This document shows positions 16,096 through 37,483 of a stretch of DNA of 49,065 nucleotides, piece by piece. Made by a program: the position numbers and the translations under genes. The DNA lies in contig JACNKZ010000083.1 in assembly GCA_014381785.1 (NCBI GenBank), forward strand, positions 1-49,065, given 5' to 3'. Under the pieces are notes generated by a model. That model was not told the DNA's origin. It ran no database searches and saw only the letters and a list, made by a program, of their open reading frames with translations. This DNA comes from Kiritimatiellota bacterium (GTDB lineage: Bacteria; Verrucomicrobiota; Kiritimatiellia; Kiritimatiellales; Tichowtungiaceae). Position 1 is the stretch's first letter. Each line of letters starts with the position of its first letter.

Positions 16096-19000
16096 CCCGC
16101 ACGGCTGCACCAATCAGCACCAGCGCGGCGGAAACCTGCTCGCCGGGATGAAGCGCTTCGACCGCCTCTTTGTAGGCCGCGAGCTGCGGGCCGTAGGTTT
16201 CCAATGCCGCCTCCGGCGATTCGTCTGAAAACTTGTAGTCCAGAATCTTCAGCTGGCTGGAACTTGTGACGCCGGCGGCGTTAAATTGCGCCAGCAAATC
16301 AATCGTGCCGTCAAGAATCAGATCGCCGCGCTTCAGCACAAACGGATGTTCAGCAAACAGCAGCTCCGCTCCGGCGGTTTCCTTAGCCAGCACCTCGCGG
16401 GCCGCTTCCAGTTGTTCTTCAAGCCCCTCGTACTCATTGGCGCCAAACAATCGCAGCAACTCCGGAATGTTTCCCGCCCAGTTGTTTTTCGCCAGCTCCT
16501 CAAGCACCGCATGGCCCAGCGTTCCGAACGCCCGGCGGTCGTTGGCAGGCTTTAGGCCTTGGGCCTTAGGCTTTAGATGTTCAACCAGACTCGTTACAGG
16601 TTTTCTTGCAACTCCCGCCGGAACTTTCAGCGAAATATAACTGACCTCTGGCCCCTGATCTCTGACCTCTGACCTCTGATCTCTGCCCTCCGACCTCTGA
16701 TCTCCGATCTCCGGCATTTCTGAAAACGTTCTACGACACAAAATTTCATCAGAAGCACCTTTAAAGAACGGCTCACCCAATTTCATCCAGCCGCCGACGC
16801 GCTGCGTCCCCGCGCCGGAAACGACAACCAGATCGCGGGCGCGGGTCATGGCGACATAAAAGACATTGGTCGATTCAGCGTCCCGCACCGCTTTATCCGC
16901 CTCGCGCGCTGCTTTCCATCCGGGACTGGCCACCTTGCCGCCGGTCAGATCGGAGATATTCATTTCTAAAGAACCCTGCGGCGAGAACATCGCGAAGCCC
17001 GGTTCGTTGACATCGCCAAAGCTGATGTCCGGCACAAAACAGACGCGCTGGGTCAGCCCCTTCGCGCCGTGCACGGTCATGATGGTCGCCGAATCCTGCT
17101 CCGGACTGGGTAGCAGCGCCTCGGCCGCGCCGCTCTTCGGCGGGGTTTGAATCGCCCGCTCGAAGCGCCGCACCACATCGCCGGCCAGCACCTGCCCGCC
17201 GCGCTCAGCGGCGCGGATCCAGTCGAGCGCTTTTTTAAAATTAGCCAGCTTCTGTTCGCCGCCGGGCTGCCCCGCTAGATGCGCGTCGAACGCCGTTTCG
17301 CGTGCAATCTCGCGCACCAACTGCGACGGCAGTTTGCTGCCGACCTGCGCACGATAGCGCAGGATCATTTCTGCCGCCTCACTTGCACTTGTAGGACGCG
17401 CTTCCCGTACTCGGGAGCGTGTGTCCTCACACACGCTCTCTGAATACAGAGAAGCTTGTCCTACAATAGATGCGGTTTCGAAAAACTGTTTTCGCAGAAT
17501 TTCGCGATCAAATGTTTCGCCGTCCCATCCAAGCTGAACGATTGTTTCGTCCGGCAAGTTGGCAAACGGCGAGCGCAGGAAACCGACCAGCGCCAGATCG
17601 TTTTGCGGCTGAGTCATCACCTGTAAAAACAGGAGCAGATCGCGCACCTCCTGCTGTTCAAACAACGCCTTGCCTTTGCCGCCACTACTGTAGGGAATGC
17701 CTGCGTCGCGCAGCGCCTTTTCGAGCGCGGCCTGATGTGTCGAGCGCTTCAGCAGAATCAAAATGTCGCCATAATCGAACGACTGACCTTCCAAAAAATC
17801 TTTGGTCTTATTGTCGTATCCAAATTTCGGACGCCAATCCTCTCCGCCGTTCACCAAAAGCCGGATGCGGCGCGCGACCGCCGCCATCTCTTCGTCACTG
17901 CCCTGGTCTTCGTTGTCGGCTTCCAAAAACTCCACACACGGCTTTTCATCCGTCAGGGCGGCGCGCGGCTCCAGCGCATCGTAGGATTCATAAATCCCGC
18001 CGAACAGTTCATTGACCGCCTCGATCACGCGATCCTTACTGCGATAGCTGGTAACGAGCGGGATCTGTTTATATTCCCCGCGCGGCTCCATCGCTTTTTC
18101 GAGGTCGGGCATCACATCGGGATCAGCACTGCGCCAGGCGTAGATGGACTGTTTTTTGTCACCGCAAACCACCAGGTTGGTTTGCGAAGCCCAAAGCGCT
18201 TCGACCACCTCGCACTGCACGCGCGAGGTGTCCTGCACCTCATCGACAATAATCCATTCAAACGGCGGTGCACCAAGTGGATTGTTTTTGAGCAGGTCGC
18301 GCGCGAGCAGCAGCTGATCGCCAAAGTCGACGCAGTCGCGCGACCGTTTGGCTTCGGCAAACCGGAGCGCACAACGCGCCAGACAACGAGCAAAAGCCCG
18401 GAACGTTGAGATATTTTCCGCATACAGCGTTTCGGTCAAAAATTGCTCTTTCAGCTCCGCCAGCTCGTCGGAAATGGGCTTCATCTCGTTGCCGGTAAAC
18501 TTGGTGAGCTCACCGATTTTTCCAATCATTGGAAAATCCTGAAGCAAAAGTTCCAATGTTTGGAAATTTTTTGCGGCCTTGGCGGGCAGTCCGCGCTCCG
18601 AGTCGATGACGGCCAGCCGATCATAGATGTTTTGAAACTCCGCGCGACCAACGGTCCGTTCCGGTTTGGGAAGCATGGCTTCAGCATCGCTCAAATCGAG
18701 CCCGCGGGAGGCGGCCTTTTCGAGCAGCGAGCGGATGGTGTTAATCACGCTGTATTCGTGGTCGCCAAGCACAGAGACCCCTCCACAAAAATCTCGGAAG
18801 TCCGCATCATTTTCCAAGGTTTGGAAAAGTTCGGCTTTCAGGGCGTCGTCGAGCAGTGCGTCGCGCTCTTCATCTTCCAGGGTTTGGAACGTCGGAGAGA
18901 GGCCGAGCCCGAGCGCGTGCTCGCGAAGCAGTCCGGCGCAGAAGGCATGGATGGTGGAGATATGCGAGGCCGGCAGTTTGCGCAGAACGGAGCGGGCCAG

Positions 19001-19244: not shown

Positions 19245-19290
19245 TTCCAATGATTGGAAGATTAGTGTTCATTCGTGTGCATTAGTGGTT
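19245..19290. repeat. Palindrome plus decamer array before the D-aminoacylase gene
   Basis: Exact palindrome TTCCAATGATTGGAA at 19245-19259. Three 10-bp units follow at 19261-19290: ATTAGTGTTC, ATTCGTGTGC, ATTAGTGGTT. The short gap also contains the helicase start region on the other strand. Confidence 0.75.
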
Positions 19291-34760: not shown

Positions 34761-35551
34761 GCCGGCGTGACCAGCTTCTAGACAACATCAACGCCTTCCT
34801 CGAATACAAAAAAGAAGAGGGTTTCCAAACCTTGGAAATTTCGCCCGAGACCCGGGCGAAACTCAAACCGGTCGCAACCCAGAAACCGGAACCGGCGCCA
34901 AAACCTGCCGCCGCCAAACCTGCCGCAGGCACCCCGGCCCTTCGGGGCGCGCCGACGGCGGGCTCTGATGTCCGCGTAACCGGTAAAACGCTTGCAGAGA
35001 TCGCCAAACAGATTTCCACCTGCTCCGCCTGCGGACTGCACGCCTCGCGCAATAAAACCGTCCCCGGCGAAGGCAACCCGAATTCACCGGACATCCTTTT
35101 CATCGGCGAAGGCCCCGGCGCGGACGAAGATGCGCAGGGTCGTCCCTTCGCTGGCGAACCCGGCCAGCTGCTCACCAAAATGATCGGCGCGATGGGCTAC
35201 ACCCGCGAACAGGTTTTTATTACCAACATCGTCAAATGCCGCGCACCCGGCAACCGTGTCCCGCTACCCGAAGAAATCTCGGTCTGCTCGGCCTACCTGC
35301 GCGCGCAGATCGCGCTGATCAAACCGAAGATCATCGTCGTGCTCGGCAAACACGCCATCGAAGCCCTGCTCAACAAACCGGTCGCCATCACCCGCTTCCG
35401 CGGAACCTGGTGCACATACGAAGGCATCGACCTCATGCCCACCTTCCACCCCGGCTACCTGCTCAAATCGCCCGGCAAAAAACGCGAAACCTGGGCCGAT
35501 ATGCAAGCCGTCCTCGCCAAACTCGGCAAAACCCCGCCCAAAGCAGGCTGA
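34757..35551 (+). CDS. udg: Uracil-DNA glycosylase, family 4
   Basis: 264 residues. After a variable N-terminus rich in Pro/Ala (about 36-70) the family 4 core starts. It has the four Cys of the iron-sulfur cluster (Cys89, Cys92 in CSACGL; Cys161, Cys177, 16 apart), active-site motif GEGPGADEDAQGRPFAGEPG (117-136) and HPGYLL (231-236). It removes uracil from DNA. The region around GFQTLEISPE is encoded by an exact TTCCAA-N3-TTGGAA palindrome (34823-34837). The C-terminus ends in KAG just where a 44-bp repeat begins. Translationally coupled to the PAS gene. Confidence 0.92.
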   Translation: MSRRDQLLDNINAFLEYKKEEGFQTLEISPETRAKLKPVATQKPEPAPKPAAAKPAAGTPALRGAPTAGSDVRVTGKTLAEIAKQISTCSACGLHASRNKTVPGEGNPNSPDILFIGEGPGADEDAQGRPFAGEPGQLLTKMIGAMGYTREQVFITNIVKCRAPGNRVPLPEEISVCSAYLRAQIALIKPKIIVVLGKHAIEALLNKPVAITRFRGTWCTYEGIDLMPTFHPGYLLKSPGKKRETWADMQAVLAKLGKTPPKAG

Positions 35552-35594
35552 GCCGGCCATGCGGGTTCCAATGGTTCGGCCAAGCTCACCACAG
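35551..35594. repeat. 44-bp direct repeat, copy 1
   Basis: Begins AGCCGGCCATGCGGGTTCCA, ends AAGCTCACCACAG, immediately after udg. Copy 2 is at 37275-37318 with one mismatch. A shorter relative (TTCGACAAGCTCACCACAG) lies at the start of the pseudouridine synthase gene near 30033. Confidence 0.85.
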
Positions 35595-35604
35595 CAAGTT
35601 AAGG

Positions 35605-36760
35605 GTTAAGGGGTCAGCCCGGTTAAGGGGTCAGCCTGAAGTAACCCCAGGTTAAGGGGTCAGCCCGTGATTTGTAGAGTTAAGGGGTCAGCCCGTGATT
35701 TGTAGCATTTTATCCTTCAAGCCAACCCTAATCGGATCGTTTGCTCGATCAAAAACTGAAATCGCTCGCGAGGCATTAGTGCGGTGCCCCATGCTCAATC
35801 TGGACGCCAACCAGACAACTGTGATCGTTGTATACTTCTTCAACATCCAAACAATAGCCTGCTTTTCTGCCTGAGTGCTTTTCATCAACAGCAAATCTGC
35901 TTCACAGATCCCCAGCGCCAATATTGCATGACTTAAAAGACGCTCCGCCTCCATTTCGTCATGCGCCTGCCGCTGCTCTCCACGAAGATTATCTGACGAA
36001 TGATCAATCATGCCGGTTAGAATCGCCCGAAAAGCATCTCCTCCAACATACCAGCCTCTTTTTAACTGTTTTTCGACGACTTCGCTCGCGGCATCACCCG
36101 CGCCTCCCCCGCCCATCTGCACTTCAAGCAAATCACGATAACGGGCTAAACGCTCGGATGCCGGGCCCGAAAAACCGCAACTTTTTAATAAGCGGTCGCG
36201 ACTCAACCATTTTGGACACGTCTTCGCGGCACCAATATACGCCCCATAGCTACTCCACCTAAACGCCTCTAACGGCTTGTCCAACCCGACGCCGGCCAGC
36301 CCCGCGCGATAGGGATTCAGGTGGATATAATTCCCAACAGCTCGAAAGTAGGATTCATCCTCACCGACCTCAACTGGAAGAGCCTTATAACGGCCCTGGA
36401 ACAGATGACCGCGGCACTTGAACATCGCATTAAAGCGCTGCGTATAGGCACCCTGAAACCACTTCATACCGGAAACTAAATTAGCCTCGGGTGTTTCAAG
36501 CAACAGATGATAGTGATTGGACATCAACACATATGCGTGAATCCGCCATCCGGTTTGCTGACAAACCTCGTCTAACGTTGACAGAAAAAGACGACGACCC
36601 TTGTCCGTCTTATAAATCGCTTGGCCGTTATTACCACGACACATCGCGTGATAAACCGCCCCGGCATACTCATGTCTTACTGACCTCGGCATGAACGAAA
36701 ATGTAGATGATACAGATCAGCAACTCAACCAGGAATGCTACAAATCACGGGCTGACCCTT
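35605..36760. mobile_element. RAYT/REP unit (REPtron)
   Basis: Four REP-like copies precede the transposase 3' end: 35605-35621, 35622-35638, 35651-35677 and 35679-35705, all starting GTTAAGGGGTCAGCC. The last two extend to GTGATTTGTAG. An inverted copy lies 5' of the transposase at 36734-36760. The copy ends carry the GTAG tetranucleotide and a GGG-TCAG-CCC mini-hairpin, features of REP sequences handled by RAYTs. Confidence 0.75.
35688..36692 (-). CDS. REP-associated tyrosine transposase (RAYT, Y1/HUH family)
   Basis: 334 residues. The IS200-like Y1 domain opens MPRSVRHEYAGAVYHAMCRG. It carries the HUH motif in LMSNHYHLLLETPEA (His60, His62), GRYKALPVE and a catalytic-helix region YFRAVGNYIHLNPYRAGL with a candidate nucleophile Tyr. 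The C-terminal third (HAILALGICEADLLLMKSTQ ... LASRLSMGHRTNASRAISVF) is a helical, helix-turn-helix-like extension found in one RAYT group. RAYTs cut single-stranded REP DNA. The last residues MLQITG and the stop codon are themselves encoded by the flanking REP copy, showing that gene and repeats form one unit. Confidence 0.92.
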   Translation of the reverse strand: MPRSVRHEYAGAVYHAMCRGNNGQAIYKTDKGRRLFLSTLDEVCQQTGWRIHAYVLMSNHYHLLLETPEANLVSGMKWFQGAYTQRFNAMFKCRGHLFQGRYKALPVEVGEDESYFRAVGNYIHLNPYRAGLAGVGLDKPLEAFRWSSYGAYIGAAKTCPKWLSRDRLLKSCGFSGPASERLARYRDLLEVQMGGGGAGDAASEVVEKQLKRGWYVGGDAFRAILTGMIDHSSDNLRGEQRQAHDEMEAERLLSHAILALGICEADLLLMKSTQAEKQAIVWMLKKYTTITVVWLASRLSMGHRTNASRAISVFDRANDPIRVGLKDKMLQITG

Positions 36761-37155
36761 CTTCCGTAAATATTGTTTAATCCATCGCTATCGGAATCCA
36801 CCGTACTATTGGCAGTCACCTTATAGAACACCGCTACACTGCTGTTAGTAATTAGGGAACCTCCGCCAACCAAATCCGGTAGTACAACCGACCCAAGCGG
36901 CAACACCCCGTTAGTTGTCGCATTGGTTTGAAGAACAGATGACCACGCGGCATCAAATAAATTACTGCACCTCATCAACGAGAGGGAGGCTCCGACAAAC
37001 TCATCCGGCAAATTCACCGAAAAGTTGGTGCTGTCCTGTACAATCTGGAAATCCGTAATCGTTTCAGCAGCTGATACCGACTCGATGGCCACAACTGCCA
37101 AAACAAGCAACACAACCCCTGTGGCGAAAAACCCAGCAAATAGTTTTCTTTTCAT
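36745..37155 (-). pseudogene. Secreted protein with type 3-repeat-like tail, truncated by the REP
   Basis: 136 residues from ATG 37155. There is a signal peptide (MKRKLFAGFFATGVVLLVLA...VSAAE), then a beta-rich segment (FSVNLPDEFVGASLSLMRCS; VAVFYKVTANSTV) of the kind often found before calcium-binding repeats. It ends DSDSDGLNNIYGRRVSP. DSDSDGL looks like the first turn of a DxDxDGL calcium-binding repeat, but it breaks off after one unit. GRRVSP and the stop are encoded by the inverted REP (36734-36760). The likely explanation is that the RAYT/REP unit landed in a longer gene whose 3' part is not seen on the other side. Confidence 0.6.
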
Positions 37156-37483
37156 GCAAATTCCTTAAAAGCCCGCATGATTAACAAGGATATTCGCAAG
37201 CGTTAAGGGATATGTCTATTGGTTGAAATTTGTTGGTCTGGCTGACACCGAATTTTTCGCGGCACAAACACAAAAGCCGGCCACGCGGGTTCCAATGGTT
37301 CGGCCAAGCTCACCACAGGTAATTGGAAAGCGTTTACGCGACTTGACTCCATGGAGGACTCATAGATAATGGCGCGGTTGTAAAAAAGATGGAATCACGG
37401 AGTACGGGAGTAATGGAATGCCGAGCGGCGTTCCAAATCAATACATCCGGTATTTAAATAATCCAGAATTTCAGGGCGTTTTA
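37156..37483. other. 328-bp gap before the ABC operon
   Basis: It holds the second 44-bp direct repeat (37275-37318) and a short octamer array (about 37390-37420, GGAATCAC, GGAGTACG, GGAGTAAT). No gene was found. A frame open upstream of the ABC gene (from 37418) crosses the array and is not a credible start. Confidence 0.5.
37275..37318. repeat. 44-bp direct repeat, copy 2
   Basis: Same orientation as 35551-35594 and one mismatch (T to C at position 10). The two copies lie 1,724 bp apart and bracket the RAYT unit and the truncated secreted-protein gene. Confidence 0.85.

Follow-up and report, generated by a model that had tools for sequence, protein, structure and literature searches.

The window, a stretch of 49,065 nucleotides from contig JACNKZ010000083.1 of a Kiritimatiellota bacterium, encodes on its reverse strand a Y1/HUH transposase of the TIRYT type with 334 amino acids (35688..36692; PF01797, E 5.8e-12). 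The gene lies within an element of 1,074 bp (35685..36758, reverse strand) which runs from inverted repeat to inverted repeat; its relatives mostly measure 1,075-1,119 bp. The terminal inverted repeat, GGGTCAGCCCGTGATTTGTAGCATT, is perfect over 25 bp. One copy is located at the 3' end of the gene (35685-35709, forward strand), where it is the source of the transposase stop codon, and the other at the 5' end (36734-36758, reverse strand). The first-pass annotation of this locus had described four direct repeat copies on one side of the Y1 gene and one inverted copy on the other, and these repeats are real. The direct copies of GTTAAGGGGTCAGCCCG were found on the 3' side of the gene, on the forward strand at 35605, 35622 (with one mismatch), 35651 and 35679, against a chance expectation of 0.06. 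Only the inner two (35651 and 35679) are complete and reach GTGATTTGTAG; the first two (35605 and 35622) are shortened. The single inverted copy lies on the 5' side (36738-36758).

The stop codons of both adjoining genes had been proposed to come from repeat DNA, and the translation positions agree with this proposal. The transposase C-terminus MLQITG-TGA is read from the repeat, with the stop codon at 35688-35690. A transposase stop codon inside the repeat was found in 48 of 55 relatives (the window gene included), 31 times as the TGA of CTGACC, and is a trait of the family. Repeat and gene-end overlaps of the same kind have been marked for TIRtrons (PMC3733652). At the other end, the element adjoins the 5' remnant of a gene which it cut (36745..37155, reverse strand). 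The product of 136 amino acids ends with RVSP-TGA, and its stop codon (36745-36747) likewise stems from the repeat. The suspected truncation was confirmed by a homologue of 407 amino acids from the same genus, which aligns up to residue 129 of the 136 and then goes on, where the window has just YGRRVSP-stop. Judged from this alignment, the neighbouring gene is truly truncated; its stop codon within the repeat is accidental.

In the transposase the HUH motif was assigned from the sequence to H60-Y61-H62 and the catalytic tyrosine to Y122 within YIHLNP. H60, H62, Y122, N126 and P127 are invariant across 27 relatives. The TnpA-Y1 subclass 2.1, which holds the TIRYTs, is characterized by NH[YF]H, FQ, Y[IV]HLNP and a Bac_DnaA_C-like tail (Quentin et al. 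2018, PMC6006769). The window protein carries the matching motifs NHYH, LFQG and YIHLNP. Residues 241-334 (35691..35972, reverse strand) make up a C-terminal domain for which structure prediction and fold search indicated a DNA-binding fold like that of DnaA domain IV (1j1v, 3pvp; TM 0.72, prob 1.00, E 0.07-0.11). This similarity was seen by fold search alone, and sequence comparison of the domain with Pfam and PDB yielded no useful match. The pLDDT was mostly 68-95 in the domain and low elsewhere; the prediction used four sequences only, and the modelled N-terminal core cannot be relied on. The repeats are probably recognized as double-stranded sequence via this predicted DnaA-like domain, and not as a REP hairpin. 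A domain binding double-stranded DNA would fit recognition of inverted repeats better than recognition of hairpins.

Searches of the host genome, which comprises 88 contigs and 2.2 Mb, were made with patterns and stretch by stretch. The genome-wide search for copies of the window repeat, which had been named beforehand as the refuting test, returned 19 copies with at most three mismatches, and the reversed control returned none. Seven related genes or gene fragments were found in this genome, and the other six are 38-68% identical to the window gene. The window gene and the gene on contig C81 have one common repeat. The remaining loci possess repeats of their own, namely GGGTCAGTCCTCGCATTTAAGCATT (C83), GGGTCAGTCCGATAATTTGACAATT (C18), GGGTCAGTCCTTGAATTCTGACATT (C88 and C76) and GGTGTCAGTCCTATTATTT (C58), so that seven genes and five repeat types coexist in one genome. 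Within the order the family is present in 31 of 43 genomes, with about 50 elements whose inverted repeats hold GGKGTCAGNCC, the core common to the relatives' repeats, at a spacing of mostly 1,075-1,119 bp. The nearest named relatives occur in Pontiellaceae B12219, with one (L056) 66% identical to the window protein, and in Kiritimatiellae/Verrucomicrobiota metagenome genomes; by these relatives the host would most probably fall into that group. The inner 17 bases of the repeat show 1.6 differences between the ends of one element compared to 8.1 between elements, and repeat distance tracks protein distance (Mantel r 0.51, p 1e-4). Consequently, each enzyme has its own repeat. Target duplications of whole elements were not detected above chance.

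Inverted pairs of 48-65 bp without a gene, which resemble REPINs, were found in 15 of the 43 genomes. One of them, folded as an example, gave a near-complete hairpin (z -9.6). An internally deleted element of 424 bp on contig C88 (L025:1435-1858) retains the inverted repeat at either end together with the first 105 transposase codons, and is possibly a non-autonomous form. Nearly perfect palindromes, GGGGTCAGGCCTTGACTTTTGC-N6-GCAAAAGTCAAGGCCTGACCCC, were observed as pairs approximately 1.1 kb apart at L280 (G032:C3:624494 and 625590) and L283 (G036:C95:9505 and 10598); they resemble an element bounded at both ends by inverted dimers. A dispersed sequence, GTACCCGGTGTATCTGTTACCTATGTGCCCGGTTCAGACC, occurs near three related elements of the same genome (L021:46-85; L022 near 1377 and L025 near 78, both on the reverse strand) and resembles the end of an unrelated insertion sequence.

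Taken together, the element is very probably a TIRtron. TIRtrons and their TIRYT enzymes were described with the repeat motif GGGGWSAS (Di Nocera et al. 2013, PMC3733652). The motif takes the form GGGGTCAG in most relatives and at 35684 in the window; at the other window end AGGGTCAG stands in its place, and some relatives have GGTGTCAG. The Y1 gene between terminal inverted repeats, the protein motifs, the Bac_DnaA_C-like tail, the occurrence of repeats as singles, dimers or groups and the overlap of the repeat with the gene end are likewise shared with TIRtrons. In contrast to those described, the window element resides in a Kiritimatiellota-type host with seven genes and five repeat types in one genome, and it carries arrays with a fixed outer restart for which we found no description in the literature consulted. 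The first-pass annotation had placed the element elsewhere, as a REPtron in which a RAYT acts on REPs tagged with GTAG. The locus, which lies outside the Proteobacteria, does hold a Y1 HUH transposase flanked by inverted repeats with further copies dispersed in the genome; the assignment as a RAYT/REP unit did not hold. REPtrons such as that of E. coli TnpA-REP (PMC8266576, PMC3116915) resemble the element in their Y1 enzyme, in the separate repeat family of each gene, in inverted repeat pairs elsewhere in the genome and in the dispersal of the cognate repeats, although dispersal is equally true of TIRtrons (PMC3733652). REPs are hairpins whose 5' foot bears GTAG or GTGG (PMC6006769, PMC8266576), whereas on both strands the single window repeat failed to fold better than shuffled sequence (z -0.8 and -0.5). 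GTAG is present as claimed, yet at the inner end of the window repeat and not at a hairpin foot; it is absent from the other repeat types of the family and thus unconserved. The protein does match the curated REP_Tyr_transpos model, but weakly, with 54.7 bits under a cutoff of 80, and it is long and has a DnaA-like tail, an extra domain compared to RAYTs, whose units also differ from the window element with its true terminal inverted repeats. The REPtron was therefore rejected on account of the missing hairpin and the unconserved GTAG, and we consider it very improbable. An ordinary IS200/IS605 insertion sequence, such as IS608 or ISDra2, is scarcely credible. In its favour are the common HUH/Y1 core, a profile match, though a weak one (E 0.13), to ISDra2 TnpA, and a base preference in the flank adjoining the end. 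However, the ends here are perfect terminal inverted repeats instead of subterminal hairpins, YIHLNP stands in place of Y---Q, the DnaA-like tail is present and the copies within the genome are just 38-68% identical; near-identical copies that conserve subterminal hairpins and a single fixed target sequence, which such an assignment would need, were absent.

While the element type is already known, the array at its edge was unexpected. In the window a stutter array extends from 35598 to 35683 on the forward strand, with units from 35598, 35605, 35622 and 35651 and a last prefix GTTAA at 35679-35683. Its start had been placed at 35605, where the second unit begins; an earlier unit of 7 bp, GTTAAGG, was found at 35598. 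All units restart at one host 5-mer, GTTAA, at a distance of five bases outside GGGGTCAG. The stops are variable and lie inside the repeat; in the order of the units they follow GG, GGGGTCAGCCC(G), GGGGTCAGCC and ...TTTGTAGA, and the unit that stops at GGGGTCAGCC carries 14 unmatched bases next. The combination of prefix and repeat, TTAAGGGGTCAGCC, had no occurrence elsewhere in the genome and is unique to the window locus.

The same rule of a fixed restart was observed across 26 genomes, in which 78 arrays display 47 different 5-mers, for example GCGAA, GCGCA, GATTA and ACAGT. These counts were obtained by flank matching; a dynamic-programming parse was dropped because long prefixes trivially win. 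At least 4 nt of the outer flank were copied in 138 of 150 junctions, and the lower edge of the copied flank is sharp (1 junction at 3 nt, 24 at 4 and 53 at 5). A restart at -4 or -5 accounts for 58 of the 65 simple junctions. The flank shows a purine/A-rich base preference at -6 to -1 and none farther out. The commonest stops were after GGGGTCA(G) and near GGGGTCAGNCCN, in a spectrum that is biased, since the pattern used for searching favoured units which reached GGGGTCAG or went past it, at the expense of shorter stops. Some units extend past the repeat into the inner flank of their own locus, and prefixes differ between the ends of a single element. Consequently, the arrays grow in place. 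Near-complete genomes also hold 21 such arrays, with 34 of 39 junctions fitting the rule, which ruled out an assembly artefact. Arrays are present in 25 of the 31 genomes with a close transposase match and in 4 of the 12 without, no more than a moderate association (p 0.009). Across the phylum the array pattern was detected in 91 of 388 genomes, some of these cases being chance or other simple repeats. Arrays with 7-bp units (GGGGTCA, GAGGTCA, GAGTTCA) in the host genome (G000:C25:15310-15408 and G000:C27:4900-6778) fit the pattern as well; they resemble a different simple repeat and were left out of the stutter-array counts. A literature search with the motif letters returned unrelated primers only.

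That the restart stays fixed while the DNA at this position changes from locus to locus points to something, presumably a protein, that measures from the repeat end. The simplest candidate would be the HUH enzyme of the element itself. In HUH chemistry the enzyme keeps the 5' end and leaves a free 3' end. Accordingly phrased for the strand 5'-NNNNN-GGGGTCAG-3', the transposase would nick approximately five nucleotides outside the repeat and stay bound to the 5' end, a host polymerase would copy the five host bases and then a portion of the repeat onto the free 3' end, and the new 3' end would then be joined, at a point that varies, to the enzyme-held 5' end. Each round would add on the outside one unit of five host bases and the beginning of the repeat. 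Rolling-circle Rep proteins and HUH elements of the IS91/Helitron type offer a likeness to such a nick, 3'-end extension and rejoining; here, in contrast, just tens of bases would be copied per round. We give this proposed mechanism, in which the transposase nicks, a short stretch is copied and the ends are rejoined, an even chance of having made the arrays. A TIRtron whose arrays formed through copying by its transposase is the overall best explanation, with a probability of roughly 0.6.

Two other origins of the arrays were weighed, both of which leave the element a TIRtron. Ordinary replication slippage at G-rich repeats would need no transposase. G-runs could stall polymerases, exactly one base is common to stop and restart at 26 of the 65 simple junctions, which is compatible with microhomology, and a few genomes that lack a close transposase match do have arrays. 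Slippage gives no reason, however, for a restart at -4 or -5 in host DNA that varies from locus to locus across 47 5-mers, and it appears unlikely. More doubtful still is that each unit arose when a repeat fragment inserted anew and duplicated about 5 bp of target. Formally, five host bases followed by a repeat fragment do equal a 5-bp target duplication, but whole elements show no such duplication. Moreover, the units match the last copy of their own array in repeat type and sometimes in the inner flank, which shows that they were copied locally.

The arrays bear on how Y1 transposases create and spread REP-like repeats. In the literature that we found, TIRYTs are known from sequence alone. 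Our data raise the idea, which we put forward tentatively and at somewhat less than even odds, that TIRYTs are nick-copy-rejoin enzymes which cut approximately 5 nt outside the inverted repeat, allow a short polymerase run-in and reseal. If this is true, the stutter arrays at the ends record the cut position and every stop, and would serve as natural footprints that predict the cut site almost to the base. Short repeats would then be amplified without movement of the element, which could be a route to REP-like families. The TIRtron family is common in this bacterial group, for which we found no earlier mention of it in the literature consulted.

Outside the element and the gene remnant, a direct repeat of 44 bp was found on the forward strand at 35551..35594 and 37275..37318. 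The two copies are 98% identical and are the only ones in the genome. They bracket a block of 1.7 kb downstream of a uracil-DNA glycosylase gene, as though this block had arrived or been duplicated whole. The window also contains three copies of a short palindrome, TTCCAATGATTGGAA, at 18534 and 25828 on the reverse strand and at 19245 on the forward strand, and the related sequence TTCCAATGGTT lies inside the 44-bp repeat.
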